Source of the DNA: Pseudothermotoga thermarum DSM 5069
Lineage (GTDB): Bacteria; Thermotogota; Thermotogae; Thermotogales; DSM-5069
Assembly: GCF_000217815.1 (NCBI RefSeq)
Contig: NC_015707.1
Location: 310,001 to 374,000, forward strand
Length of the DNA: 64,000 bases
Direction of reading: 5' to 3'
Part shown: positions 15,555 to 33,169 of the stretch, in pieces
Layout: the number at the start of each line of letters is the position of its first letter
Numbering within the stretch: position 1 is the first letter of the stretch
Program-made: the position numbers and the translations under genes
Notes under the pieces: generated by a model
Databases searched by the model: none
Told to the model about the DNA's origin: nothing
Seen by the model: the letters and a program-made list of their open reading frames with translations, nothing else

Positions 15555-17921
15555 GTGAGAAACAAACTTGTCGACGGTTGGACTTTAATCTGTGGTGAAA
15601 AGGTTGTAGAAATATCGTCTGTTCCTCATCAATCCGATATCTCTCAGGAATCTTATCCAAACGCAAGTTGCCAGCAGTTGGTTTATGAGAGAAAGCTTGT
15701 GGAACTGAAAGGAATGGATGAGCGTAAAGCGATTCTGAGATTTCACGGTGTGGATCTTCAAGCATCTGTGTTTGTGAATGGTCAAAAGCTTTTGGATCAC
15801 GAGGGTGGATATGACTTGTTTGAAGTTGATCTTTCGAATTACGTAAAATTCGACGGTAACGATTTGCTCAGACTTGTTGTTTCTGATGTGGATGTGAGAG
15901 CCGAACCACACATTGTGATGGGCAAGCAAGATTGGTATGGCAACGCAACCGGAATTGTACAAGAAGTAGAGCTGTTGGTTGTGCCGCCAGTGTACATAAG
16001 TTCAGCGAGATTCTATCCACTGGATCTTTTTGGTAGAGTAAAAGGCATAGTCGAATTTTCCGACGGGAAGGACCATGAATTCCAACTTGAAATCTATGAC
16101 TCCAAGCATAACAAGGTTTACCAAAGCAAAGAGAAGAGCAGTTGTTTCGAATTTACGATTGTCAACCCACATCTGTGGTCTATTGATGATCCACATCTGT
16201 ACAAAGCCGTTGTAACATTGGAAACGGATGGATACATCGACCGGTTTGAAACATCGTTTGGAATAAGAATCTTTCAAACCAAAGATGACAAACTTTTGTT
16301 GAACGGAGAACCTGTTTACATTTTCGGAGCTTTGGATCAAAACTTTTATCCTATAACTCATTACTGTTTGCCTGACAGAAATTCTTTGGTGTCGGAATTA
16401 CTCAAAGCCAAAGAAATGGGGCTAAACCTTTTGAGATTTCACATGAAGATACCGGATGATCTGTACTTGGAAATAGCCGATGAAATAGGACTTTTGATTT
16501 GGATAGATCTTCCTTATGCAAGGATTCTGAACGATTCTTCGAAAAACTACCTCGAAAAACTGATGGAAAACCTTTTGGTAAGGCATGCCAATCATCCAAG
16601 TTTTGTGATGCTGTCCTTGATCAACGAGAGTTGGGGAATCGATTTGTCGATTGCCGAAGAAAGACAATGGCTTAGGAAATTTTACTTTAAAGCGAAGAAG
16701 TTTGATCCTACAAGAGTTTACGTTGACAACAGTGCGTGTATAGGTAATAAACACGTTATTTCAGACGTGGATGATTATCACTTCTATAAGGCGTATCCTT
16801 ACCACAACAAGGAATGGAAAGAACAGATAAAAGATTTTGCAAGCGGAAAATTTGAGAGTTTCTACGAACCTATCGATAAGAAATTGCCAAAACTTGTTTC
16901 AGAATTTGGTATTTGGGGAATTTCTGATCCAAAAACTTGGCTGGGAAAATGGTCTGAGTTTCCAGTAACCGTTATGGGATTGACGTTTGATCAAACTCAG
17001 CCTGCCTATGCACTACAAGGAATAGCAAACTTCCACGATCTTGACGATTTGATCTATCAAGCTCAACTCACACAGTTTCTTGGGTTGAAGTATCAAATTG
17101 AAACGATCAGAATGCAGCCAGAGATATCAGGTTATGTGATCACGGAATTTTCAGACATAGCTTGGGAAGCAAACGGTTTGCTTGACTACAACAGGATGCC
17201 AAAGCATTTTTATCCTTATTTGAAGTTTTTGAACAGCAAAGTTATAGGGATTATTCCGGATCATAATTCACTTTTGATCGAAGGGGATTTTTATACTGCG
17301 CCGCTTTGTGTGATCAACAGTGATTCAAAAGTTCTGAAGGCGAGAGTCTTGGTTAGAACAGAAAAAGATGTGATTTTGGATAAGACTATCGAAGTGCAAC
17401 CTTGGGAGATTAAGGAAATTTCTTCGCTTTCATTCAAACCAGATAAGACAATTCACAACATTTATGTGGAGATATTCAGCGATGGTAAACTTATCAGCAG
17501 GAATTTTTATCCGATGCAAGTTCTTGAGAGGAAAGCAGGGACATTTTTGTTGGAGTTTGTCGACAGCGATTTTTTTGTTGAAGATGGGTTAAGAGCGGTG
17601 AGAGAAAACACAAAAGTTGGTGGTGTATTGGATTTGAAAGGGGACTGGATAGGTGCGGCGACTGTTTTCAACGTCAAAAGAAGTTTGAACATAGCTGCGT
17701 TAATATGGGGACTAAATACAATAACAAGCGAGTATCTGCTTTTAGCAGAAGAGTCAAATCACTTTAGTTCTGAACAGTCTGTGATAACGAAGGTGTATGG
17801 CTGGGGATATGCGCTCGGTTCGTTGCTTTATGTTTCCAGGAAAGATGGAGAAACAAAGGTGTTCACAACGCTTAAGGATACAGAATTGAGTCGAGTTTTG
17901 ATTGCAAATCTGATTTGTTGA
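15555..17921 (+). CDS. Glycoside hydrolase family 2 protein
   Basis: A 788-residue intracellular glycosidase (no signal peptide). It has the GH2 layout: an N-terminal jelly-roll sugar-binding domain (VFVNGQKLLDHEGGYDLFEV), an Ig-like domain, the TIM barrel (about residues 255-560), and a C-terminal beta region. The acid/base is Glu358 in INESWG and the nucleophile is Glu450 in VSEFGIWG. GH2 covers beta-galactosidases, beta-glucuronidases and beta-mannosidases, and the sequence does not tell me which. It precedes nanE, a sugar ABC transporter and a ROK kinase, which suggests it releases an N-acetylmannosamine-type sugar from an imported glycoside. The GTG start follows AAGGAGGA at 6 bases. Confidence 0.88.
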   Translation: MRNKLVDGWTLICGEKVVEISSVPHQSDISQESYPNASCQQLVYERKLVELKGMDERKAILRFHGVDLQASVFVNGQKLLDHEGGYDLFEVDLSNYVKFDGNDLLRLVVSDVDVRAEPHIVMGKQDWYGNATGIVQEVELLVVPPVYISSARFYPLDLFGRVKGIVEFSDGKDHEFQLEIYDSKHNKVYQSKEKSSCFEFTIVNPHLWSIDDPHLYKAVVTLETDGYIDRFETSFGIRIFQTKDDKLLLNGEPVYIFGALDQNFYPITHYCLPDRNSLVSELLKAKEMGLNLLRFHMKIPDDLYLEIADEIGLLIWIDLPYARILNDSSKNYLEKLMENLLVRHANHPSFVMLSLINESWGIDLSIAEERQWLRKFYFKAKKFDPTRVYVDNSACIGNKHVISDVDDYHFYKAYPYHNKEWKEQIKDFASGKFESFYEPIDKKLPKLVSEFGIWGISDPKTWLGKWSEFPVTVMGLTFDQTQPAYALQGIANFHDLDDLIYQAQLTQFLGLKYQIETIRMQPEISGYVITEFSDIAWEANGLLDYNRMPKHFYPYLKFLNSKVIGIIPDHNSLLIEGDFYTAPLCVINSDSKVLKARVLVRTEKDVILDKTIEVQPWEIKEISSLSFKPDKTIHNIYVEIFSDGKLISRNFYPMQVLERKAGTFLLEFVDSDFFVEDGLRAVRENTKVGGVLDLKGDWIGAATVFNVKRSLNIAALIWGLNTITSEYLLLAEESNHFSSEQSVITKVYGWGYALGSLLYVSRKDGETKVFTTLKDTELSRVLIANLIC

Positions 17922-18021
17922 TTCTCGAATAAACCGAAAATTTCCTTCCCAACGTAGGTTTTGTTTTTAAAAGAAGCAGTTTTTGCCTTGATATGTATTT
18001 TTTCACCTTATTTTCAACTAC

Positions 18022-18050
18022 TTGACAGAAATAATTTCCAGTTATAAAAT
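18022..18050 (+). promoter_or_regulatory. Promoter of the nanE-transporter operon
   Basis: TTGACA at 18022-18027, a 17-base spacer, and TAAAAT at 18045-18050. It lies in the 165-base gap between the GH2 gene and nanE, so the transporter and catabolic genes can be expressed separately from GH2. Confidence 0.55.
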
Positions 18051-18062
18051 CAAAATTGGAAA
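18035..18062. promoter_or_regulatory. Candidate operator overlapping the nanE promoter
   Basis: TTTCCAGTT and AATTGGAAA form an inverted repeat (eight of nine positions) separated by 10 bases, covering the -10 box and likely start site. The placement is that of a repressor site. The RpiR-family regulator at the end of the same operon is the natural candidate to bind it. Confidence 0.4.
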
Positions 18063-18086
18063 AAACTTCCAAAGGTGGTTCGAAAC

Positions 18087-18752
18087 GTGAGACAAATACC
18101 AAGGGGAATAATAATCAGCTGTCAACTTGAACCAGGCGATCCAATTGAAGATGTGTGTTTCGTTGTAAGTATGGCAAAGGCTGCGAAATATGCTGGTGCT
18201 GTGGCTATAAGGACAAACGAAGCAAAACATGTACGCGCTATTAAAGAATCCTTGGATATTCCAGTTATTGGGCTTGTGAAAGATAGAAATTATAAAGCTT
18301 TCATAACACCAACTTTTGAGCATGCAAAACAAGTTATTGAAGCAGGGGCAGATCTTGTAGCAATAGATTGTACAAGAAATGAAAGACCCGTTGAGTTGGA
18401 TAAACTGTTTGAACAAATAAGGTTAGAATTTCCCAATGTTGGAATTGTGGCAGACATCGCCGATGAGTTGGATGCAGAAAGGGTTCAAAGTCTAAAACCG
18501 GATTTCATCGCGACAACGCTTTGTGGATACACCTCTTACACCCAGGGATGGAGGATACCAAACCTTGATTTAGTTAAGAAGCTTTCAAAGAAACTGTTTA
18601 TACCAATAATTGCCGAGGGAGGATACTCAACGGTAGAAGAGGTTGAGAAAGCCTTTGAATATGGTGCTTACGCAGTCGTAATTGGCACTGCTATAACAAG
18701 ACCGTGGCTGACAATTCAAAGGTTTGTGCGTAGGGCACAACCATTCTTGTAA
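18087..18752 (+). CDS. nanE: N-acetylmannosamine-6-phosphate 2-epimerase
   Basis: Converts ManNAc-6-P to GlcNAc-6-P. The 221-residue TIM-barrel protein has the NanE hallmarks: IIISCQLEPGDP at the N-terminus, VAIRTNE, PVIGLVK with the likely catalytic Lys65, ITPT, VAIDCTRNERP, ATTLCGYTSYTQG, and IIAEGGYST with the likely acid Glu177. I start at the GTG 8 bases after GGTGG; another in-frame GTG lies 12 bases upstream within that site. It heads the operon nanE, binding protein, two permeases, ROK kinase, RpiR regulator. No N-acetylneuraminate lyase is nearby, so the pathway probably begins from free ManNAc rather than sialic acid. Confidence 0.93.
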   Translation: MRQIPRGIIISCQLEPGDPIEDVCFVVSMAKAAKYAGAVAIRTNEAKHVRAIKESLDIPVIGLVKDRNYKAFITPTFEHAKQVIEAGADLVAIDCTRNERPVELDKLFEQIRLEFPNVGIVADIADELDAERVQSLKPDFIATTLCGYTSYTQGWRIPNLDLVKKLSKKLFIPIIAEGGYSTVEEVEKAFEYGAYAVVIGTAITRPWLTIQRFVRRAQPFL

Positions 18753-18767
18753 GGGGGGTATGAAAAT

Positions 18768-20063
18768 ATGAGGAAAGTTCTAGTTGCATTTGTCCTTGCA
18801 TTTGCGATCCTTATGTTCTCCGCAACGAAAATAGTTATGGTGTACTGGCCAGGGCCAGAAAGTGAAGCTATGGAAAAGGTGGTAAGTTACTGGAATGCCA
18901 CCGAAGGAAAGAAACTTGGTATTGAAGTTGAAATCCTCAACTTTTCGAGAGAAGGTTTCTGGGAGAAGCAAGAAATTCTACTTAATGCGAGATCTTCAGA
19001 AGTAGATATAGTTTTTGTTGCTACCTACATAATCGGTAGGCTTGCTCCTCATCTGGTTCCTCTGGAGGGTTTCCAGCTTGATCCCAATGTGTTCATTGCA
19101 TCGGCTCTTGACAGCATGTCTTACGAGGGATTTCTCTACGGTTTACCTCTTGATGTGAGTAATCACTTTTTATACTATCGAAAAGACTTGATGGAAAAGC
19201 TTTTGAACGAACCAGCTTGGAGGACGAGATATGAGGAACTGTCTCAAAAATACTTAGGTAAAAAGCTGTCACCAAAGAGACCAAACGAATGGGAATGGGA
19301 TGATTACAAAGCTACAGCCATTTTCTTCACCAAAAAATATAATCCAGATTCACCAACCACTTATGGAAATGTGTTGCAAATGAAGAATCTTGTCTACAAT
19401 GTAATGATATGGAATGATGTGTTATGGTCAATGGGTGGATCTTGGTTTGATTCAACTGGTAAATTTAATATAAAAACTGAAGCAGCAAGGAAAGCAGCTG
19501 AGTTGTTTAAGACGCTTTATGATCTTGGAACAGTGCCCCCTGGTGTAACCACGTATGAGTTTGGAGAAGCTAATGAAGCATTTAAGAGTGGGAGTGTATT
19601 TATGATGATACAATGGTCTGCTGCTTATAACATACTAACTGATAAAACTCAGTCACCTTTAGTGTATGACAAGGTTGCACTTGCCCCAATTCCCGGTCCA
19701 AGACCATCTACACATGTTCATTCGCTTGGTGTAGCATTGAGCAAGTACAGCAAGAAAAAAGATGCGGCCTTGAAATTCTTGTCTTTCTTAGCAAGTGAAC
19801 AAGCAATGAAAATGTATGCTGAAAACGGGGGTATTCCACCGGTTGAGACCGTGCTCAAATCCCTCGGACATAAACGTCCAGAATTTCCTGTAATAGCAGA
19901 GCACGTTAGAAAGTATGGTTACGTTGAGGCAACTATTCCGGAGACAATGTCTATACTCGAAATAATTTCAAACAAATTGACTGCTTACTGGGCTGGACAA
20001 ATTGACTTGGATCGCACTCTTGACCAAATTCAAGCAGAAGTTGATACTCTTCTGAAAAAATAG
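18768..20063 (+). CDS. ABC transporter sugar-binding protein
   Basis: A 431-residue family-1 type solute-binding protein that captures a sugar outside the membrane and delivers it to the two permeases downstream. It has a cleavable signal peptide (MRKVLVAFVLAFAILMFSA) without a lipobox Cys, so it is periplasmic, under the toga. The mature part has the usual features of the group: an N-terminal MVYWPGPESEAMEKVV strand-helix, YGLPLDVSNHFLYYRKDLM in the hinge region, and a C-terminal region rich in aromatic residues. Strong GGGGGG-type ribosome site. A perfect hairpin follows its stop and may raise its expression over the permeases. Confidence 0.9.
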   Translation: MRKVLVAFVLAFAILMFSATKIVMVYWPGPESEAMEKVVSYWNATEGKKLGIEVEILNFSREGFWEKQEILLNARSSEVDIVFVATYIIGRLAPHLVPLEGFQLDPNVFIASALDSMSYEGFLYGLPLDVSNHFLYYRKDLMEKLLNEPAWRTRYEELSQKYLGKKLSPKRPNEWEWDDYKATAIFFTKKYNPDSPTTYGNVLQMKNLVYNVMIWNDVLWSMGGSWFDSTGKFNIKTEAARKAAELFKTLYDLGTVPPGVTTYEFGEANEAFKSGSVFMMIQWSAAYNILTDKTQSPLVYDKVALAPIPGPRPSTHVHSLGVALSKYSKKKDAALKFLSFLASEQAMKMYAENGGIPPVETVLKSLGHKRPEFPVIAEHVRKYGYVEATIPETMSILEIISNKLTAYWAGQIDLDRTLDQIQAEVDTLLKK

Positions 20064-20081
20064 AGCAAAAATTTCAAGGCA

Positions 20082-20110
20082 AAACCCCGCACAACTATTG
20101 TGCGGGGTTT
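20082..20110 (+). terminator. Intra-operon hairpin after the binding-protein gene
   Basis: AAACCCCGCACAA, a CTA loop, and TTGTGCGGGGTTT make a 13-base perfect stem 18 bases after the binding-protein stop. There is no U-tract beyond TTT, so it is probably a partial terminator or an RNA-stabilising processing hairpin that keeps the binding-protein transcript abundant relative to the permeases. Confidence 0.7.
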
Positions 20111-20133
20111 GTCATAACATAGAGGTGAGATTC

Positions 20134-21003
20134 GTGAATCCAAGATTTAGCAGAAAAGTAATAGGTTTTCTTTTCTATCTACCATTAATAGCTTTAGTAG
20201 TGGGCTTTTTTGCATACCTGCTGGCGTCTTCAATTTTTATTAGTTTTAAAAATGTCTTGTTCGGAGGCATGGCAGCCGCGAAATTTGTTGGTTTTAGCAA
20301 CTACATTGAACTGTTTTTTTCAAGAGATTTTTGGTATTCCATGAGGTTTAGTTTCATTTTTGGTATAACTACAGCATTTTTAGAATTAGCTCTTGGATTC
20401 TTGTTAGCTTACTATTTTTATTCGAAATTCCGTGGCTCAAAGTTTTTATTCACTTTTCTAATCAGTCCTATGTTTATTGCTCCTTCTCTTTTTGGCCTTA
20501 TGAACAGAATTCTTTTCAACAATTTTATCGGCCTCATTCCTGGTTATGTAAGATCTTTATTTGGAATAAGTGTTGATTTTTTTCATCCTAACAACATATT
20601 TTGGACACTTGTTGGAATAGATTTATTGCAGTGGACTCCATTTTTGTTTCTGATTATATACGCTGCCTTACTGGGAATACCAATTCAGCTAATAGAAGCA
20701 GCAAGTATAGATGGCGCAGGAAGATTTCAAAAAGTTGTAAATATTGTTCTTCCATACATCAAACCAGCGCTTATTTCTGGTGGTTTTCTTAGATTCATTG
20801 AATCATTCAGAAGTTTCGATTCCATCTATGTTTTGACAGGCGGTGGACCTGGCAGCCTCACTACAACAATAAGCATTTTTATCTATAGAACATCATTTAC
20901 AATGGGAAATCAAGGGTTATCAAGTGCTGCAGGAATTCTATTATTCTTGGTGATGCTATTTCCTTTGTTCCTTGCGTCAAAAGTAATGAGAAAAGAGTGG
21001 TGA
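20134..21003 (+). CDS. ABC sugar transporter permease (MalF/UgpA type)
   Basis: A 289-residue membrane permease with six predicted helices, first of the pair. The ATPase-contact EAA loop is AASIDGAGRFQKVVNIVLPY near residue 190. The C-terminal ILTGGGPGSLTTTISIFIYR-like segment (around 231-250) is typical of the UgpA/MalF group. The GTG start follows GAGGTGA; earlier in-frame codons lie within the preceding hairpin and have no ribosome site. As is usual in Thermotogales sugar operons, no ATPase gene is in the cluster, so a shared MsiK-type ATPase encoded elsewhere probably powers it. Confidence 0.92.
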   Translation: MNPRFSRKVIGFLFYLPLIALVVGFFAYLLASSIFISFKNVLFGGMAAAKFVGFSNYIELFFSRDFWYSMRFSFIFGITTAFLELALGFLLAYYFYSKFRGSKFLFTFLISPMFIAPSLFGLMNRILFNNFIGLIPGYVRSLFGISVDFFHPNNIFWTLVGIDLLQWTPFLFLIIYAALLGIPIQLIEAASIDGAGRFQKVVNIVLPYIKPALISGGFLRFIESFRSFDSIYVLTGGGPGSLTTTISIFIYRTSFTMGNQGLSSAAGILLFLVMLFPLFLASKVMRKEW

Positions 21004-21008
21004 TCTTA

Positions 21009-21827
21009 ATGAAACCTAAAAGAAGTTTTCTTGATTGGCTCATTATCCTTTGCGTTATCTTTATTTTCAACTTACCTTTGATAAACGTTGTGATGACCTC
21101 TCTCAAGGACAACAAAACTATTTCGCAGTCACCACCACCTTTGGTGTTTAATCCCACTATAGCTCATTATAGAGATATTTTCACTAGTTCCACTTTTTCC
21201 TTCTGGAGGTTTCTCAATAACAGTTTGCTGATAGCTTTGTTTTCCTCAGCTATAACACTTTTGTGCTGTCTTCCTGCTGCTTACGCATCCGTCAGACTTG
21301 GGCTTGGTCCAGGTTGGTTAATAAGTTTTGTGGCAAACCTTAGATCAGTTCCACTGGTGGTTTTTGCCCCATCTGTGTATGTTTTGTTTAAACAAATGAA
21401 TCTTGTAGATTCAAAACTGGGCATAATACTGATACACATACTGGTTAACTCACCAATGGCTTTGCTTTTGCTGGCAAGTTTCATGCAGGATATCCCTAAG
21501 GAAATTGAAGAAGCGGCTTATTTAGATGGAGCCAATAAATTGCTAATTCTTTTAAAGATAGTTTTTCCAATGCTTTCTTCATCAATTGCAGCAGTGTTCA
21601 TACTTAGTTTTGTGTACTCATGGAACGAGTTCTTATTTGCCCTAATACTGAGTATCAGACGTTCTACAACATTAACTGTTGGAGCAAGTTTGTTCATTAC
21701 CGCTTGGGGAGTTCAATGGGGAAGGATCGCTGCAGTTACCACACTTGCTGTTATTCCACCATTTCTGTTTGCTTTTTACGTTCAGAAGTACTTGGTAGAA
21801 GCCTTTTCGGGGGGAGTAAAGGAATGA
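21009..21827 (+). CDS. ABC sugar transporter permease (MalG/UgpE type)
   Basis: A 272-residue second permease with about six membrane helices. The EAA loop is EAAYLDGANKLLILLKIVFP near residue 160, and the C-terminal WNEFLFALILS segment is typical of MalG/UgpE. I start at the ATG at 21009, with GTGGTGA just upstream; the start is five bases after the first permease's stop. The stop overlaps the ROK kinase start (ATGA). It pairs with the permease and binding protein upstream. Confidence 0.92.
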   Translation: MKPKRSFLDWLIILCVIFIFNLPLINVVMTSLKDNKTISQSPPPLVFNPTIAHYRDIFTSSTFSFWRFLNNSLLIALFSSAITLLCCLPAAYASVRLGLGPGWLISFVANLRSVPLVVFAPSVYVLFKQMNLVDSKLGIILIHILVNSPMALLLLASFMQDIPKEIEEAAYLDGANKLLILLKIVFPMLSSSIAAVFILSFVYSWNEFLFALILSIRRSTTLTVGASLFITAWGVQWGRIAAVTTLAVIPPFLFAFYVQKYLVEAFSGGVKE

Positions 21828-22702
21828 ACAAGGTTATAGGCATCGACATTGGTGGCACTATGATCAAAGGTGGGATTGTCGAAGAAAAGATTATAAAAAC
21901 GAGGATTATCCAACCACTGGCTAAGAAGCAACCTATGGAGAGTTTGGATTCAGTAATAAAGAAACTCCTTAGAGCTGGGTATGAGCAAATCAAATGTATT
22001 GGTATAGCTACAGCTGGTAGAGTCGACTCGGACGATGGTGTTGTTCTTTATGCGTCACCGAATATTCCTAATTGGTCAAGCTTGCAACTATCAAAAATCC
22101 TGAGGAAAAGATATGATATACCATGCTACGTTATTAATGATGCTAAGGCTGCTGCTTTGGCAGAAGCTAAAATCCGAAACGTGTCGAACCTGGTCCTGCT
22201 GACAATTGGCACGGGGTTGGGTGGGGGAATAATTGTCAACGGGGAAATTCTTCAGGGTTTCAAATGGGAAGCTGGGGAAATTGGGCACACTATACTTCAT
22301 CCAAACGGCAGGCAATGCAACTGCGGAAAAAAAGGTTGTGCCGAGCAGTACATATCGATGAAGGTTCTGCACAGGTATGCGAAAGAAAGGGACAGGCACA
22401 GACTCATAGAAAGGTTTCATCAGAATGATCTGCAAATTGTTTCAGCGGTAGAAAGATTGGTTAAGGACCTGGTCATTTTGACAGACAAATTATTTTTAAC
22501 AATTGATCCTGAGTTTGTAGTAATCGGTGGAGGTTTTTGTGAATTAGGATCAAATGTGTTAGAAATCATCAGGAAACACCTAGAACCCTACGCTTCAAAG
22601 TCCCTTTACAGTCCATCACAAGTTGATCTGTCAACTCTTGGAAATGATGCTGGTATAATTGGTGCAGCTATGTACGCTGAAAGTCGAATCTCGGGAGGTT
22701 GA
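21824..22702 (+). CDS. ROK family sugar kinase, probable N-acetylmannosamine kinase
   Basis: A 292-residue ROK kinase. It has the N-terminal ATP-binding motif GIDIGGTMIKGG, the sugar-binding segment VINDAKAAALAEA, TIGTGLGGGIIVNG, and the ROK zinc site His155 with CNCGKKGC (Cys165, 167, 172). No helix-turn-helix is attached, so it is an enzyme rather than a ROK repressor. The genes next to it (nanE and a sugar importer) argue for ManNAc as substrate, making ManNAc-6-P for NanE; GlcNAc or another hexose is possible. The ATG at 21824 overlaps the permease stop by 4 bases and has a GGAGTAAAGG-type site. Longer in-frame starts run backward through the permease gene and are not credible. Confidence 0.88.
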   Translation: MNKVIGIDIGGTMIKGGIVEEKIIKTRIIQPLAKKQPMESLDSVIKKLLRAGYEQIKCIGIATAGRVDSDDGVVLYASPNIPNWSSLQLSKILRKRYDIPCYVINDAKAAALAEAKIRNVSNLVLLTIGTGLGGGIIVNGEILQGFKWEAGEIGHTILHPNGRQCNCGKKGCAEQYISMKVLHRYAKERDRHRLIERFHQNDLQIVSAVERLVKDLVILTDKLFLTIDPEFVVIGGGFCELGSNVLEIIRKHLEPYASKSLYSPSQVDLSTLGNDAGIIGAAMYAESRISGG

Positions 22703-22710
22703 CCAATTTC

Positions 22711-23535
22711 ATGGAAGATGTTCAGACCATTATAAAAGTTAACCAGAGGCTTTTTACTAAGAAAGAAAAAAAGCTTGCGGAATTTGTTATCACTCATCCA
22801 GAAGATGTTATTGATATGAGTGTAACGGAAGTAGCAGATACACTTGGTATTGGCGAGGGAACCGTGGTCCGGTTCTGTCAAAAACTCGGTTTCACCGGTT
22901 TTCACGCTTTCAAAATAGCCCTAGCAAAAAGTTTGGGAAAACAGGAAGAATTGGCAAGATCAAACGATATTTTGAATATTGTGAAAGAAAATCACATTAA
23001 AGCCATAGAAGAAACGTCCAATTTGCTTAAATTAAATGAAAAGATAGTGTACCAATGCGCCGAAAAAATAGCGAACTGTAGAAGACTTTATTTGTTGGGA
23101 GTGGGAGCCTCTGGTGTCACGGCTCTCGATGCTTACTATAAATTCATGCGAATTGGTATAGATGCAAGACACATGATGGACCCACATCTTCAGATTATGG
23201 ATTTATCAAGTTGTTGTGAAAAAGATTGTGTTCTGGCTTTTTCACAGAGTGGATCTACCGCCGTTGTTGTGGACATGGCAAAACTTGCAAAACAGAATGG
23301 AGCTTGTGTAATAGCCATTACTGGTTACAACAAATCTCCTTTAACCTCTTATGCAGATTTTATTTTGTTGACTGCGATTAGGGAAAATCCATTTCAAAGC
23401 GGGGCCATAAGGTCGAAAATAGCACAGTTACATGTTTTGGAGGTTCTATTTGAACAAACATGTTTGATTCTTTCAGATAAAGCAAGAAAAAGCATTGACC
23501 GTACAGCGCGAGCAGTAGAAGATTGGATATATTAA
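22711..23535 (+). CDS. RpiR family transcriptional regulator (HTH + SIS domain)
   Basis: A 274-residue regulator. Residues about 1-75 are the RpiR helix-turn-helix (MSVTEVADTLGIGEGTVVRF). Residues about 120-255 are an SIS sugar-phosphate domain (LYLLGVGASGVTALDAYYKF, then VLAFSQSGSTAVVVDMA). SIS regulators sense phosphosugars; ManNAc-6-P or GlcNAc-6-P would fit this operon. It likely controls the promoter at 18022-18050 through the inverted repeat there. I start at ATG 22711, 12 bases after GGGAGG; the spacing is long, but the in-frame TTG at 22699 directly abuts the site and cannot use it. Confidence 0.9.
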   Translation: MEDVQTIIKVNQRLFTKKEKKLAEFVITHPEDVIDMSVTEVADTLGIGEGTVVRFCQKLGFTGFHAFKIALAKSLGKQEELARSNDILNIVKENHIKAIEETSNLLKLNEKIVYQCAEKIANCRRLYLLGVGASGVTALDAYYKFMRIGIDARHMMDPHLQIMDLSSCCEKDCVLAFSQSGSTAVVVDMAKLAKQNGACVIAITGYNKSPLTSYADFILLTAIRENPFQSGAIRSKIAQLHVLEVLFEQTCLILSDKARKSIDRTARAVEDWIY

Positions 23536-23614: not shown

Positions 23615-23815
23615 ATGGCAAAAAGATGCGAGATCTGCGGGAAAGGACCTGTGGCAGGTAAGACCATCAGCCATTCGAATAAGCACAACCCAAGAATGTT
23701 TAGACCGAACATCCAAAAGGTTCGAGTGAGAATGGAAGATGGCACAATCAAGACGATGAAAGTTTGTGCCAAATGCCTGAAAGCAGGCAAAGTTCAGAGG
23801 GTAACAGCAGCATGA
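23615..23815 (+). CDS. rpmB: 50S ribosomal protein L28
   Basis: A 66-residue ribosomal protein beginning [20 protein letters not shown]. It is the zinc-ribbon (C+) form, with CEIC near the start and CAKC near the end as the four metal ligands. The ATG has GAGGGG upstream; an in-frame ATG 33 bases earlier lacks one. It is a single-gene unit with its own promoter and a strong terminator. Confidence 0.97.
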
Positions 23816-23850
23816 TCGCGCGGAAAATCCCGCGCGATTTTTATTTTATT
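23815..23850 (+). terminator. Rho-independent terminator after rpmB
   Basis: ATCGCGCGG, a six-base loop, CCGCGCGAT, then TTTTATTTTATT. Nine perfect GC-rich pairs with a U-rich tail. Confidence 0.9.
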
Positions 23851-26073: not shown

Positions 26074-26666
26074 GATTTGTTGTAGGCGTCACAGGAAAAA
26101 TTGGGAGTGGAAAATCCACTGTTTCAAAATTTTTGGCTAAACTTGGGGCAACTGTCATCGACGTTGATAAGGTCGCACACGAGATACTTGAAACGGAAAA
26201 TGTGAAAAGACAGATAGTCGAAGCCTTTGGAAAAGAGATACTAACCGACGGAAAAGTGAACCGAAAGAAACTTGCTGGTGTGGTTTTTTCAGATAGTTTG
26301 AAGCTAAGATTGCTTGAATCGATCGTTCATCCTGTTTTGAGAGAAGAAATAGCAAGAAGAGTGGAAAAGTTAAGGGGTTTGGTAGTTCTTGATGCCGCAA
26401 TTCTTCACAGGATTGGCTTGGACAAGCTGTGTGACTTGATAATAGTTGTCACAGCACCTTTGGATAGAATTTTTGAACGTTTGCGTGCAAAAGGTTTAAG
26501 CGAAGGGGAAATAAGGCGAAGACTGAGTTTTCAAAACGATATCCCCTTGGAAGGAATCGTCGTCGATAACGAAGGGGATTTGAATTCCCTAAGGGAAAAA
26601 GTTGAAAAGATTTACCAACAAATTTTGTTGCCAAGAATATTTTCCAAACAAGGAGGTGTTTTTTGA
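26070..26666 (+). CDS. coaE: Dephospho-CoA kinase
   Basis: Final step of coenzyme A synthesis: phosphorylates dephospho-CoA. The 198-residue P-loop kinase has VGVTGKIGSGKSTVSKFL at the N-terminus, the DVDKVAHEIL segment and FSDSLKLRLLESIVHPVL near residue 72, as in other CoaE proteins. The TTG start overlaps the upstream small ORF, and the stop shares one base with the next gene's ATG. Confidence 0.93.
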   Translation: MRFVVGVTGKIGSGKSTVSKFLAKLGATVIDVDKVAHEILETENVKRQIVEAFGKEILTDGKVNRKKLAGVVFSDSLKLRLLESIVHPVLREEIARRVEKLRGLVVLDAAILHRIGLDKLCDLIIVVTAPLDRIFERLRAKGLSEGEIRRRLSFQNDIPLEGIVVDNEGDLNSLREKVEKIYQQILLPRIFSKQGGVF

Positions 26667-27925
26667 TGAAAAAGTTCATTTTGGTGGTTGCGCTGATTTT
26701 GGCTGTCACTTTTGCCTTTGCAAAAGTCAAGGTTACTTTCTGGCATGCCATGGGAGGAGGACATGGTCAGGCCCTTCAAGAGATTGTGAATTTCTTCAAC
26801 CAACAACATCCAGACATCGAAGTTGAGGCTATCTACATAGGAAATTACTCTGCTCTTCAGCAAAAGCTTCTTGCTGCTGCACAGGCTGGCGGACTTCCTA
26901 CGATCTCACAAGCTTATTCCAACTGGACTGCAAAACTGATTTACTCGGGAATCGTTGAACCTTTAAACCGCTTCTTGAACGACCCAGTTATAGGCATGAC
27001 TAAGGCAGAGTGGGAAGATATTTGGGAACCGATGAGGCTCAATTGCATGTGGGACGATACTCTCTACGCTTTGCCTTTCAACAAGAGCATATACGTTCTT
27101 TACGTCAACACCGATGCCCTAACGCTTGCGGGGTTAAGCATACCTGAAACGATTGGAGAATTGAAAAAGGCCGCGATACTTTTGACGGAGGATTTCAACG
27201 GTGATGGAGTCATAGATCAATATGGTTTTGGATTTAGATCAACCGTCGACCACTTCCAGGTGTTCTTGGCTCTCAACGGTGGTAGCATACTTCAAAAAGG
27301 TCCAGATGGGAAATGGAAGGTAACCATCAACAGTCAGGAAGCAAGGGAAGTTCTTCAGTTCATGCTGGAGCTCAAGGACAAATACGCGCTTGTTCAAGGT
27401 GGGTATTTGGATGGACCTTTTGGCGAAGGCAAAATAGCCATGTTCATAGAAACGGTTGCAAGCAAACCATACGTTGAAAGTGCTTCAAAGGGTAAACACG
27501 ATTGGACTTGGGCACCAGTTCCTGTTTGGAAAACAAGGAACGTTCAATTCGCCGGAACCGATGTAATTATGTTCAGCACGGCAAAAGAAGAAGAAAAGAG
27601 AGCTGCTTGGGAATTCATGAAGTTCTTGGTTTCACCGGAAATCACCGCATACTGGGCTGTCAAGACAGGATATTTGCCGGTTAGAAAGAGTGCCACCCAA
27701 ACGGCAATCTGGCAAAAATTTGTGGCAGAAGATCCAAGGGCAGAAGTTCCTTTGAAACAACTGGAATACGGTGTGTTCGATCCGCAGATTGGTGTCTGGG
27801 CCGAGATCAGGACCATAGTCAACACTATGGTAAGCGATGTTCTGTTTGGAAAGAAAACAATAGAAGAAGGTTTGGCGTGGGCTGAGCAAGAGATAAAGAG
27901 AGAGCTTGAAAAAGAAGGTCTATAA
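26666..27925 (+). CDS. ABC transporter sugar-binding protein (UgpB-like), orphan
   Basis: A 419-residue extracellular solute-binding protein. The signal peptide is MKKFILVVALILAVTFAFAK, followed by the typical VTFWHAMGGGHGQALQEIV strand-helix of UgpB/MalE-type binders. A DFNGDGVIDQYG segment (near residue 180) looks like a calcium-binding EF-hand loop. No permease or ATPase genes are adjacent; the terminator right after it makes it a stand-alone partner for a transporter elsewhere. It has a strong AAGGAGGTG site with the ATG at 26666. It is the second binding protein in this window, clearly distinct from the one at 18768. Confidence 0.9.
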   Translation: MKKFILVVALILAVTFAFAKVKVTFWHAMGGGHGQALQEIVNFFNQQHPDIEVEAIYIGNYSALQQKLLAAAQAGGLPTISQAYSNWTAKLIYSGIVEPLNRFLNDPVIGMTKAEWEDIWEPMRLNCMWDDTLYALPFNKSIYVLYVNTDALTLAGLSIPETIGELKKAAILLTEDFNGDGVIDQYGFGFRSTVDHFQVFLALNGGSILQKGPDGKWKVTINSQEAREVLQFMLELKDKYALVQGGYLDGPFGEGKIAMFIETVASKPYVESASKGKHDWTWAPVPVWKTRNVQFAGTDVIMFSTAKEEEKRAAWEFMKFLVSPEITAYWAVKTGYLPVRKSATQTAIWQKFVAEDPRAEVPLKQLEYGVFDPQIGVWAEIRTIVNTMVSDVLFGKKTIEEGLAWAEQEIKRELEKEGL

Positions 27926-29975: not shown

Positions 29976-30725
29976 TCACTTCTCAAAAGCCCCACTTGTT
30001 CGCAATTCAATTTTGAATCGATACTTGTCTCCACGGTATATTGAACGAACGTACTCAATGCACCTGTTGTTGGTAGTATAGGTATAACGTTTTCGAAGCA
30101 GTGCACATGCTCCGGGATTTACAGAAAGCAATTTGGCATCGCTCGGGGAAATTTGAGTAACCTCAAACTCCTCCAACGCTCTCAAAAGCGGAATTTTGAG
30201 TTCGTTTCTGAGAAATTCATATAGGGATTCCTTCGACATATCTTTCTTCAAAATGTTTAATATTCTAACGTCCACAGAAGTGTTCAAATAAGCGCTTTCA
30301 ATTGCCACAGGTTCGTCGTTCATATATCTAACTCGCTTTAAAAGTATTATCATCGTTCCCGGTTCTAAACCAAAAACCTCCACAAGTTCACTTGGAATTT
30401 CCACAAGTTTGTTCTCCAAAACCAAGGATCTAACGCTGAAGCCTTCTTCTTTTGCTTTATCGGTAAAACCTTTCAATACGTTCATTTGCTCTTCCTCTTT
30501 CCTTCCAGTGATAAAGGTGCCCCTTCCTTTTGCACGAGTTATAAAACCTTCAGAGCGAAGCTCTTCCAAAGCTCTTCTTATCGTCAAACGGCTGACATTG
30601 TAAATAGCAACCAATTCAGATTCGGGAGGAATTTTATCCCCAGGCTTGTAGATTCCATCCAAAATTTTCTGTTTAAGATCCCTGTATACCTTGTAATACA
30701 AAGGAACAGGATAATCCTTATCCAC
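29976..30725 (-). CDS. GntR family regulator (HutC/UTRA type)
   Basis: A 249-residue repressor-type protein: winged helix-turn-helix at residues about 5-70 (PPESELVAIYNVSRLTIRRA) and a UTRA ligand-binding domain (about 90-235; EPVAIESAYLN, then the C-terminal RCIEYVRSIYRGDKYRFKIE). In NagR/YvoA-type relatives this domain binds amino-sugar phosphates. It is the last gene of the nagZ-murQ operon, so a MurNAc- or GlcNAc-derived effector is likely. I start at the GTG 6 bases after GGGGTGA. The inverted repeat at 33193-33219 upstream of nagZ is a possible target. Confidence 0.88.
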   Translation of the reverse strand: MDKDYPVPLYYKVYRDLKQKILDGIYKPGDKIPPESELVAIYNVSRLTIRRALEELRSEGFITRAKGRGTFITGRKEEEQMNVLKGFTDKAKEEGFSVRSLVLENKLVEIPSELVEVFGLEPGTMIILLKRVRYMNDEPVAIESAYLNTSVDVRILNILKKDMSKESLYEFLRNELKIPLLRALEEFEVTQISPSDAKLLSVNPGACALLRKRYTYTTNNRCIEYVRSIYRGDKYRFKIELRTSGAFEK

Positions 30726-30755
30726 TAACAATCACCCCTAAAATGATGATACCAT

Positions 30756-31661
30756 TTATTTTTGAGCTTTCATCAATTCTATAGCTTTCCTCAGGTTCGG
30801 CTCTTTTTGTATTATCTTCTGACATTCTTCAATATCTTTACCTGTAAGGATTGTCAAAATTGCAAGTTTTACGTTGTAACCTGCACGCTCTAAGTTTTTC
30901 TCTGCAACATCGCTGTCAACCCCGGTAACACGAGATACGATATTTTTAGCTCTTTCTTTGAGTTTTTCGTTCAAGACCATAACATCCACCATCAAATTGT
31001 CGTAAACTTTACCCATCTTTACCATCACTGTTGTGCTAATCATATTGAGAACCATCTTTTGAGCTGTCCCGGCTTTCATCCTGGTACTTCCAGCAACAAC
31101 TTCCGGTCCTGTTTCAACACTTATCACGACATCGGCAAGATTGGAAAGAGTAGGTTTACCAACGTTGCAAATCAAAATTGTTTTACAACCAAGTTGCTTT
31201 GCATATCTAAGTGCTCCACCAACGTATAAAGTTCTTCCGCTTGCTGTTAACCCAACTACAATGTCTTTTGAATTCAACGAGTGCCTCTTTAAATCCTCAG
31301 CTCCAAGTTCTTCATTGTCTTCGACTCCTTCGATGGATCTTGAAAGAGCCTCATATCCTCCTGCTATAACTGGTATTACGATACCTTCTGGAAGACTATA
31401 AGTTGGAACAAGTTCAACTGCATCTATGAAAGCAACTCGGCCACTAGTTCCAGCTCCAACGTAAAAAACCCTTCCGTTTGCTTTCAAACACTCCAAAATG
31501 AGATTTACAGCTTTATCAATTTCCTTCAAAGCATCTCGAACAGCCAAGGCTACAAGCGCGTCTTCTTCGTTTATGAGCTTTAGTATCTCAATCGTTTCTT
31601 TATTGTCAAGATCTTTCGTTTTTGGATTTGGTATTTCCGTTGGCAAGTTTGATATGTTCAC
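30756..31661 (-). CDS. murQ: N-acetylmuramic acid 6-phosphate etherase
   Basis: Cleaves the lactyl ether of MurNAc-6-P to give GlcNAc-6-P and D-lactate in cell-wall recycling. The 301-residue SIS-domain protein shows the MurQ signatures: GRVFYVGAGTSGRVAFIDAVE, the segment PVIAGGYEALSRSIEGVEDN, VVGLTASGRTLYVGGAL, and GSTRMKAGTAQKMVLNMIST. The GTG start has GGAGGTG and overlaps the nagZ stop by 4 bases. The D-lactate produced could feed the Etf-linked dehydrogenase encoded next door at 33284-36415. Confidence 0.96.
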   Translation of the reverse strand: MNISNLPTEIPNPKTKDLDNKETIEILKLINEEDALVALAVRDALKEIDKAVNLILECLKANGRVFYVGAGTSGRVAFIDAVELVPTYSLPEGIVIPVIAGGYEALSRSIEGVEDNEELGAEDLKRHSLNSKDIVVGLTASGRTLYVGGALRYAKQLGCKTILICNVGKPTLSNLADVVISVETGPEVVAGSTRMKAGTAQKMVLNMISTTVMVKMGKVYDNLMVDVMVLNEKLKERAKNIVSRVTGVDSDVAEKNLERAGYNVKLAILTILTGKDIEECQKIIQKEPNLRKAIELMKAQK

Positions 31662-33169
31662 CTTAACACCTCCACCGGCAGTTTTCCCATTGGTTTTTCC
31701 TGACCAAGAAGAACTTTGAACAGAGCTTTTTGAGAAACTAATTCATAACCGTAAGAACAAAGACCTGAAGCTTCGACGATGAAACAATCGTATGGATTTC
31801 TCATGGCAACGATCAAGAGTTTCTCAAACCTCTTTCTCAAATGTTCAACAAGGCTTTTTTGCCACTGTTGCAGATGTGCATTCTCTGTGAAGACAACGCA
31901 CCTTTTACCAGAGATCTCAGGCAATGGTTGATTTTGCTGGTGAACTACAAGTTTAGCTTTGAAAACCTTGGAAAGCTCTTTTGCCACCCATGGCACACCA
32001 GGTTCAGTTTCCTCGACTTGAACAAGCCTGCTGGTTTTCACAGTTACCACGAAATCATCTTTTTCAAGTTGCACAGGAACCATTTGATCTGGATCCTTAA
32101 CCAAGGTGATCGACTTTTGTGATATTTGTTCCATTATCTTCTGATGCTGCGTCGGGTCAAAGTTAAGTTCCGCGGGAAGTTCTTTCACGCCGAACTCGTT
32201 TTTGAATCTCTTGATTCTCTCAAAACTTTCGGTAACTCGGTTCATCAGCAAAGGTTCTTTTTCGATCATTTTCATGAGATACTTCTTCGCGGCAAGTTGC
32301 AAGTCAGGTTCGTGACAAACCGTCAAAACATCCACACCAGCTTGCAAGGCTTTGACAACAGCTTCTTCGACGGAAAGGTTCTTGGTAATTCCTCCCATCA
32401 AAAGATCGTCTGCAATGATAACACCTTGAAAGTTCAACCTTTTACGAAGTAGATCTGTCACTATCTCGTGGGAAATAGTCGCTGGAATTTTCTCGTTTTG
32501 TAGCTTTGGAAGATAAATGTGTGAAGGCATTATCGATGGTATACCAGTTTTGATCAATTCGATGAATGGAACAAGTTCCCAAGAAAGCAGCTCATCAAGG
32601 CTTTTCTCCAAAACGGGCATATCAAGATGCGCATCAACGTTGACGCTGCCTTTACCTGGGAAGTGTTTCGCACAAGCAGCGACCTTTCTTGAAGCAAGCC
32701 CCTTGTAAAAAGCTTGAGCGAATCTGACTACTTTTTCTGGACTGTCGCCGAAGCTTCTGACACCGATTTCAGGGTTGTTCGGATTGTCGTTGATATCAAC
32801 AACGGGTGCAAGGTTCCAGGTGATTCCGAAAGTTCTCATTTCTTCGGCAAGGATTTGTCCGGCGACAAATGCGTTGTTATCATCTTTTGTGGCAGCCAAA
32901 GCCATTGCTCCGGGACTTACGGCAAAGCCATCTCTAAGCCTTGTTACAATTCCACCTTCTTGATCTATTGCAAAAACAACATCGTTTCCAAGAACTTTTC
33001 TTACATCCTTTACAAGTTGATACAATTGCTTCGGTGATTCGATGTTTCTGGCGAAAAGTATCACAAAACCCGGTTTTATTTCTTGCAGGTGTTTGACTGT
33101 CTTGTCGTTGAATTCTTTTCCTTCGAAACCAACCATGAAAAGTTGTCCAACAACCTCCGAAAGCGTCAT
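31658..33169 (-). CDS. nagZ: Beta-N-acetylglucosaminidase, GH3, NagZ-like
   Basis: Removes GlcNAc from GlcNAc-MurNAc compounds. The 503-residue protein has no signal peptide, so it is cytosolic. The GH3 barrel (residues 1-335) contains WNLAPVVDIN, IGVRSFGDSP, the NagZ motif KHFPG at 168-172 with the catalytic Asp179/His181 dyad in VDAH, and the nucleophile region IIADDLLMGG (Asp254/255). A second alpha/beta domain of about 160 residues follows, as in the two-domain Bacillus-type enzyme; it ends in a region with no further motif I recognise. First gene of the nagZ-murQ-gntR operon, coupled to murQ. The ATG has GGAGG at 8 bases. Confidence 0.92.
   Translation of the reverse strand: MTLSEVVGQLFMVGFEGKEFNDKTVKHLQEIKPGFVILFARNIESPKQLYQLVKDVRKVLGNDVVFAIDQEGGIVTRLRDGFAVSPGAMALAATKDDNNAFVAGQILAEEMRTFGITWNLAPVVDINDNPNNPEIGVRSFGDSPEKVVRFAQAFYKGLASRKVAACAKHFPGKGSVNVDAHLDMPVLEKSLDELLSWELVPFIELIKTGIPSIMPSHIYLPKLQNEKIPATISHEIVTDLLRKRLNFQGVIIADDLLMGGITKNLSVEEAVVKALQAGVDVLTVCHEPDLQLAAKKYLMKMIEKEPLLMNRVTESFERIKRFKNEFGVKELPAELNFDPTQHQKIMEQISQKSITLVKDPDQMVPVQLEKDDFVVTVKTSRLVQVEETEPGVPWVAKELSKVFKAKLVVHQQNQPLPEISGKRCVVFTENAHLQQWQKSLVEHLRKRFEKLLIVAMRNPYDCFIVEASGLCSYGYELVSQKALFKVLLGQEKPMGKLPVEVLR

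Follow-up and report, generated by a model that had tools for sequence, protein, structure and literature searches.

A probable N-acetylmannosamine operon without a sialate lyase and a neighbouring furanosidase-type GH2 gene in Pseudothermotoga thermarum

Where would N-acetylmannosamine (ManNAc) come from in a bacterium that appears equipped to use it and has no sialate lyase to release it? The question is raised by a 64,000-nucleotide (nt) stretch of the genome of the thermophile Pseudothermotoga thermarum DSM 5069 (contig NC_015707.1, hereafter the window), in which a gene for a glycoside hydrolase of family 2 (GH2) is followed by genes for NanE, an ATP-binding cassette (ABC) sugar importer, a ROK kinase and an RpiR-family regulator. 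The genome (G000) consists of one contig (C1) of 2,039,943 bases, of which the window covers C1:310001-374000, and it was compared with relatives of the same family (G002-G010) and with genomes bearing further G numbers, the Thermotogota set comprising 103 genomes. An earlier reading of the window (the original prediction) had placed seven open reading frames (ORFs) here in one direction, all of which are present with the coordinates and the common + strand that it gave, and had named the GH2 enzyme as the local candidate for the release of free ManNAc. The comparison points instead, with good confidence, to two independent units: a self-contained ManNAc-utilization operon (18022-23535) and an unrelated gene for a furanosidase-type GH2 enzyme.

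The operon opens with the predicted N-acetylmannosamine-6-phosphate (ManNAc-6-P) 2-epimerase NanE (225 amino acids (aa), 18075-18752, +), which scores 219 bits against the 189-bit cut-off of the NCBIfam subfamily of putative ManNAc-6-P epimerases and 153 bits in Pfam, and whose best structural matches are 1Y0E and 6VVA. It is followed by a CUT1-family sugar-binding protein (SBP; SBP_bac_1/8 by profile matches, 18768-20063, +), two ABC permeases recognized by their BPD_transp_1 domains (A, 20098-21003; B, 20997-21827; both +), a ROK protein that is a probable NanK-like ManNAc kinase (21824-22702, +) and a NanR-like regulator of the RpiR family with HTH_6 and SIS domains (22699-23535, +). The best solved match of the ROK protein is the ManNAc kinase 6JDB; the protein stays below the curated cut-off of every kinase equivalog, NanK included, and is a homologue of the ROK portion in the NanE-ROK fusion proteins of other Thermotogota, whose occurrence in 12 other genomes provides independent support for the kinase assignment. 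The SBP has orthologues with 79-82% identity in the same operon of four genomes and is likely to be a receptor for ManNAc or a ManNAc-containing saccharide. The regulator, which has a near-palindromic site at the nanE promoter, finds its best solved match in 4IVN, which we take to be the RpiR-type regulator NanR of Vibrio vulnificus. The sugar-contacting Arg aligns with R151 of the window protein and is also found in other RpiR regulators. NanR of Streptococcus pneumoniae, a member of this protein family, has ManNAc-6-P as its ligand and does not bind N-acetylglucosamine 6-phosphate (GlcNAc-6-P; PMC12713135), and, because the sugar-contacting residues are not diagnostic by sequence alone, it is by analogy that we infer ManNAc-6-P to be the probable effector here.

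In the pathway that these assignments suggest, the SBP and the two permeases, together with an ATPase encoded elsewhere, would bring ManNAc or a small compound containing it into the cell, the ROK kinase would convert ManNAc to ManNAc-6-P, NanE would turn the latter into GlcNAc-6-P, and NagA and a deaminase would pass the product on to glycolysis, with the RpiR protein sensing the pathway, probably through ManNAc-6-P, and controlling the promoter via two palindromic operators. NagA was found at C1:1990953-1992050, and the deacetylation step after GlcNAc-6-P thus exists. Sialic acid would play no part in this pathway. The genome contains one gene of the dihydrodipicolinate synthase (DHDPS)/NanA family, whose score identifies it as dapA (353 bits, cut-off 206) and which stays below the nanA cut-off (118 bits, cut-off 382), so that the lack of nanA claimed for the island holds for the genome as well. 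NanA was above its cut-off in none of the 11 related or operon-bearing genomes tested, and a NanA-family homologue was present in none of the 20 Thermotogota NanE neighbourhoods that were compared with the dapA/nanA reference; the operon itself contains neither a sialidase nor a sialate transporter, no genome-wide search for sialidases or tripartite ATP-independent periplasmic (TRAP) transporters having been made. The kinase and epimerase path without a sialate lyase, as originally proposed, is supported by the NanE-ROK fusions, the match to 4IVN and the missing NanA in the operon-bearing genomes. The arrangement resembles the nan operons of S. pneumoniae and V. vulnificus (NanA-NanK-NanE with an RpiR-type NanR) in its NanE, NanK-like ROK protein, NanR-like RpiR protein and importer and in having one promoter with palindromic operators, but differs from them in that the genome has no NanA and in that the importer and the operator sequences are peculiar to its own lineage.

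The order NanE-SBP-permease-permease-ROK-RpiR is kept gene for gene in four relatives (G002, G004, G005 and G008), the proteins being 53-82% identical, and in none of them does the GH2 gene adjoin it; a search for the gene set in other Thermotogales, which had been suggested at the outset, thus recovers the six-gene operon without GH2. In the window, GH2 and NanE are separated by 153 nt and a strong promoter, which agrees with the earlier caution that nothing but its position linked GH2 to the operon. This promoter (TTGACA-17 nt-TAAAAT, 18022-18050, +) has 11/12 matches and is the best in the region. Two NanR-type operators are predicted at it, CAGAAATAATTTCCA (18026-18040), which overlaps the spacer between the -35 and -10 elements, and TGGAAAAAACTTCCA (18057-18071), 31 base pairs (bp) downstream of the former; neither is assigned to a strand. 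Promoter and operators are conserved: each of the seven family genomes that have NanE carries TTGACwGAGATnATCTCCA followed by TGGAGAnnnTCTCCA upstream of the gene. With an operator matrix built without this genome, operator 1 is the top-scoring site in the 64 kb of the window and operators 1 and 2 are its only site pair at a spacing of 31 bp. Similar pairs stand upstream of NanE in G012, G013 and G015, which have other cluster types. No NanR-type operator precedes the window GH2 gene, the best score there being -0.6. A genome-wide search allowing one mismatch returned about 50-100 matches per genome and no clear further members of the regulon. A lone NanR-like site upstream of the GH2 operon of G010 was dismissed because G010 has no NanE and its relatives do not have the site.

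The GH2 gene has a history of its own in the family. Orthologues with 50-56% identity are found in nine other family genomes, and NanE is a neighbour in none of them: a distance of more than 0.7 Mb separates the two genes in G007 and G008, 14-20 kb occupied by unrelated genes lie between them in G002 and G004, G005 and G009 carry them on different contigs, and G003, G006 and G010 have GH2 and no NanE. In eight of the nine relatives, an SBP-permease-permease trio lies directly 5' of GH2, and in most of them a gene matching in size the LacI regulator that was recognized in G010 lies directly 3' of it (in G002 there is an extra gene in between, and in G006 the contig stops at GH2). The exception for the trio is G004, whose GH2 orthologue (L030:8142-10385) also has one in-frame TGA; the two features together suggest that the gene may be decaying there. 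The promoters of the GH2 operons of four relatives carry a LacI-type operator, AACGATAACGTTATCGTT or a sequence very close to it, and variants sharing its half-sites occur in G003, G005 and G006; an operator of this type is not present at the window GH2. An orthologue of the GH2-linked SBP was not found in G000 either, where the best match has 26-28% identity. By these comparisons, GH2 is an orphan in G000, separated from the LacI-controlled ABC operon of its relatives. A protein 51% identical to the GH2-linked LacI closes a different ABC operon in G000 (C1:1395073); its gene lies in a region (L093, C1:1386000-1402000) that also encodes a 1257-aa protein of repeat blocks, a probable gluconate-type permease and a CUT1 ABC trio, and it carries a perfect CGGTAACGTTACCG operator. 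More distant relatives of GH2 (30-36% identity) range over plasmid-borne genes of Rhizobium, haloarchaea and Azospirillum. Those of Rhizobium are accompanied by CUT1 ABC genes and LacI, those of haloarchaea lie beside genes for CUT1 ABC importers, an arabinofuranosidase, GH43 enzymes, galactonate dehydratase and IclR regulators, and that of Azospirillum is near a UDP-galactopyranose mutase gene; none of the annotated GH2 regions of the three groups contains NanE.

The sequence of the GH2 protein itself (788 aa, 15555-17921, +) leads in the same direction. Its start at 15555 agrees with a Shine-Dalgarno sequence and with the N-termini of the orthologues, and with this start the catalytic residues named in the original prediction hold, E358 as the acid/base in an INE motif and E450 as the nucleophile in SEFG. 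In the GH2 classification, group III comprises furanosidases and has as its hallmark a Thr in place of the Trp of the -1 subsite, whereas every GH2 activity on C2-modified sugars belongs to group II (PMC12243196). The window protein has Thr530 at the hallmark column, within an ITEFSD motif that is kept, also as close variants, in the orthologues, in a homologue from G059 and in the rhizobial relatives, and it has N540 downstream. A profile of eight orthologues finds its best solved matches in the beta-D-galactofuranosidase 9J6N/9J6M (GH2_18), 7SF2 and 7XYR (GH2_19), the beta-mannosidase 5N6U scoring far below the group III structures, so that the protein does not fit group II. PF02837 outscores PF22666, and a Mannosidase_ig domain is absent; a beta-mannosidase, which had been the first expectation on the model of a Thermotoga maritima enzyme, received no support from the domain and PDB matches. 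Among the three GH2 matches in the genome, the hallmark was seen in the window protein only, one of the others having Trp at the column and the other a group I-type SHY motif in an alignment that ends short of it. With the group III furanosidases 9J6M/9J6N and 7XYR the window protein shares the Thr and the NE and SEFG motifs; it differs from them in its length of about 790 aa and in an additional C-terminal region. No signal peptide is apparent in it, and most GH2_19 members also have no secretion signal. A structure prediction from two sequences reached a predicted local distance difference test (pLDDT) score of 47 and was discarded. The protein thus most likely belongs to the group III furanosidases, and would be a cytoplasmic enzyme of the alpha-L-arabinofuranosidase and/or beta-D-galactofuranosidase type acting on imported oligosaccharides, which in the relatives would be supplied by the LacI-controlled ABC operon. 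For Thermotoga thermarum, a GH2 alpha-L-arabinofuranosidase named TtAFase is on record (Shi et al., 2014, as cited in PMC4560423). This is probably the same species as that of the window, and the window gene is very likely the one that encodes TtAFase.

The expectation that GH2 is a new beta-N-acetylmannosaminidase and the ManNAc-releasing enzyme of the island is therefore not supported. Such an intracellular exo-enzyme would split disaccharides imported by the adjacent transporter and feed ROK and NanE, and the covalent double displacement of GH2 enzymes, which is independent of a 2-acetamido group, would allow it. The separate operons of the relatives, some of them in genomes without NanE and with the active-site motifs unchanged, and the group III sequence nevertheless make it very unlikely, all C2-modified activities being of group II, and the promoter and operators are located in the gap that separates GH2 from NanE, with none 5' of GH2. 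Several points weigh against the separation of the two units. The GH2 gene lies here directly upstream of the operon and in its direction and has lost its own importer, so that it could use the neighbouring one; no profile predicts the substrate of that importer; and TtAFase is assigned to this locus only provisionally. Moreover, a NanE-ROK-RpiR operon of G059 includes a GH2 of the same type (34% identity, same motifs), placed between DUF4434 and OppB. This protein groups with the family clade with 99/99 support in a midpoint-rooted tree, and G048 has the operon without GH2. One independent case of a shared operon keeps a functional link between GH2 and NanE possible, for example if GH2 took a capping furanose off a glycan that contains ManNAc, and the GH2 lineage might have been recruited to NanE operons at least twice, in the window and in G059, to free ManNAc from a bacterial surface glycan or to expose it by removing a capping sugar. 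If so, there would be a sialate-independent route from glycan to ManNAc involving an as yet undescribed GH2 activity, a prospect that we regard as highly doubtful. The G059 case is outweighed by the separate regulation and the context of GH2 in the family.

With GH2 and the operon taken as two units, the substrate of the operon can still be viewed differently. It could serve another N-acylated amino sugar, or ManNAc together with GlcNAc, through a shifted or broad specificity of NanE and ROK; the ROK score below all kinase equivalog cut-offs would allow for this, as would the same SBP family occurring in G029, which has no NanE, beside a sugar-phosphate enzyme with a SIS domain. Against it stand NanE above its subfamily cut-off, a ROK protein nearest to a ManNAc kinase, the NanE-ROK fusions and a regulator nearest to 4IVN, and we consider this reading unlikely. 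Somewhat less probable still is that the operon is left over from a sialic-acid pathway that has lost its lyase, and that it now takes cross-fed ManNAc or has no function. CUT1-type importers and RpiR-type NanR proteins, as is generally known, also serve the sialate operons of other bacteria (PMC12713135), but the absence of NanA extends over all the genomes and NanE neighbourhoods in which it was sought, every gene is intact and the operators are kept across genera, which implies active selection.

ManNAc use without sialate is thus supported by the comparative evidence and appears widespread in Thermotogota, where NanE is found in 34 of the 103 genomes. Three arrangements recur, the window type being the first. 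In the second, NanE, in some cases fused to ROK, is joined by a PF12831 FAD oxidoreductase in 13 genomes (loci L031, L119-L121, L124-L129 and L134-L136, in G007, G012, G013, G015, G063, G093, G094, G033, G067, G027, G028, G090 and G070); an RpiR gene is adjacent in many of these, nearly all have a CUT1 importer and GHL10 and/or DUF4127, and some have the same NanR-type operator pair as the window operon. The papers searched contain no description of the function of this cluster. The third arrangement consists of a NanE-ROK fusion with RpiR, SBP_bac_5, a PF02522 aminoglycoside-acetyltransferase-like gene and DUF4434 (G059, L137:486-12473; G048, L138; G055, L139), and in G048 and G059 Opp-type permeases complete the Opp-type importer. 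NanE serves as a genomic marker of sialic-acid catabolism, and nanE has been taken to represent the nan cluster, even though only 16.6% of the nanE genes in that study lay in a full cluster (PMC10570557). Given a conserved NanE-NanK-NanR module without a lyase in Thermotogota, a nanE match in habitats of such bacteria does not have to indicate sialic acid, and ManNAc must come from some other source. Candidates for this source are to be sought among the recurring partners, namely the PF12831 oxidoreductase, GHL10, DUF4127, PF02522 and DUF4434. The literature search returned nothing on an N-acetylmannosaminidase or on DUF4127 and no ABC transporter for ManNAc uptake. Cwp19, an enzyme of the GHL10 type, has been described as a lytic transglycosylase (PMC6016235), which by analogy makes a cell-wall origin of ManNAc a reasonable candidate idea.

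Two RNA hairpins are predicted on the + strand of the operon. A strong one (20077-20113, -24.9 kcal/mol, z -6.2) lies in the gap between the SBP and permease A genes and probably uncouples the expression of the SBP from that of the permeases. It overlaps the first listed start of permease A (TTG at 20098, from the longest ORF), and the true start is therefore probably downstream. The other, terminator-like, is located 3' of the operon (23814-23839). Farther along the window, a gene for a UgpB-like sugar-binding protein (26663-27925, +) has no adjoining permease gene in the ORF lists. About 6 kb from the ManNAc operon, a peptidoglycan-recycling unit (29976-33169, -) combines in one operon a NagZ-like GH3 enzyme, the N-acetylmuramic acid 6-phosphate (MurNAc-6-P) etherase MurQ and a GntR/UTRA regulator, and it likewise yields GlcNAc-6-P.

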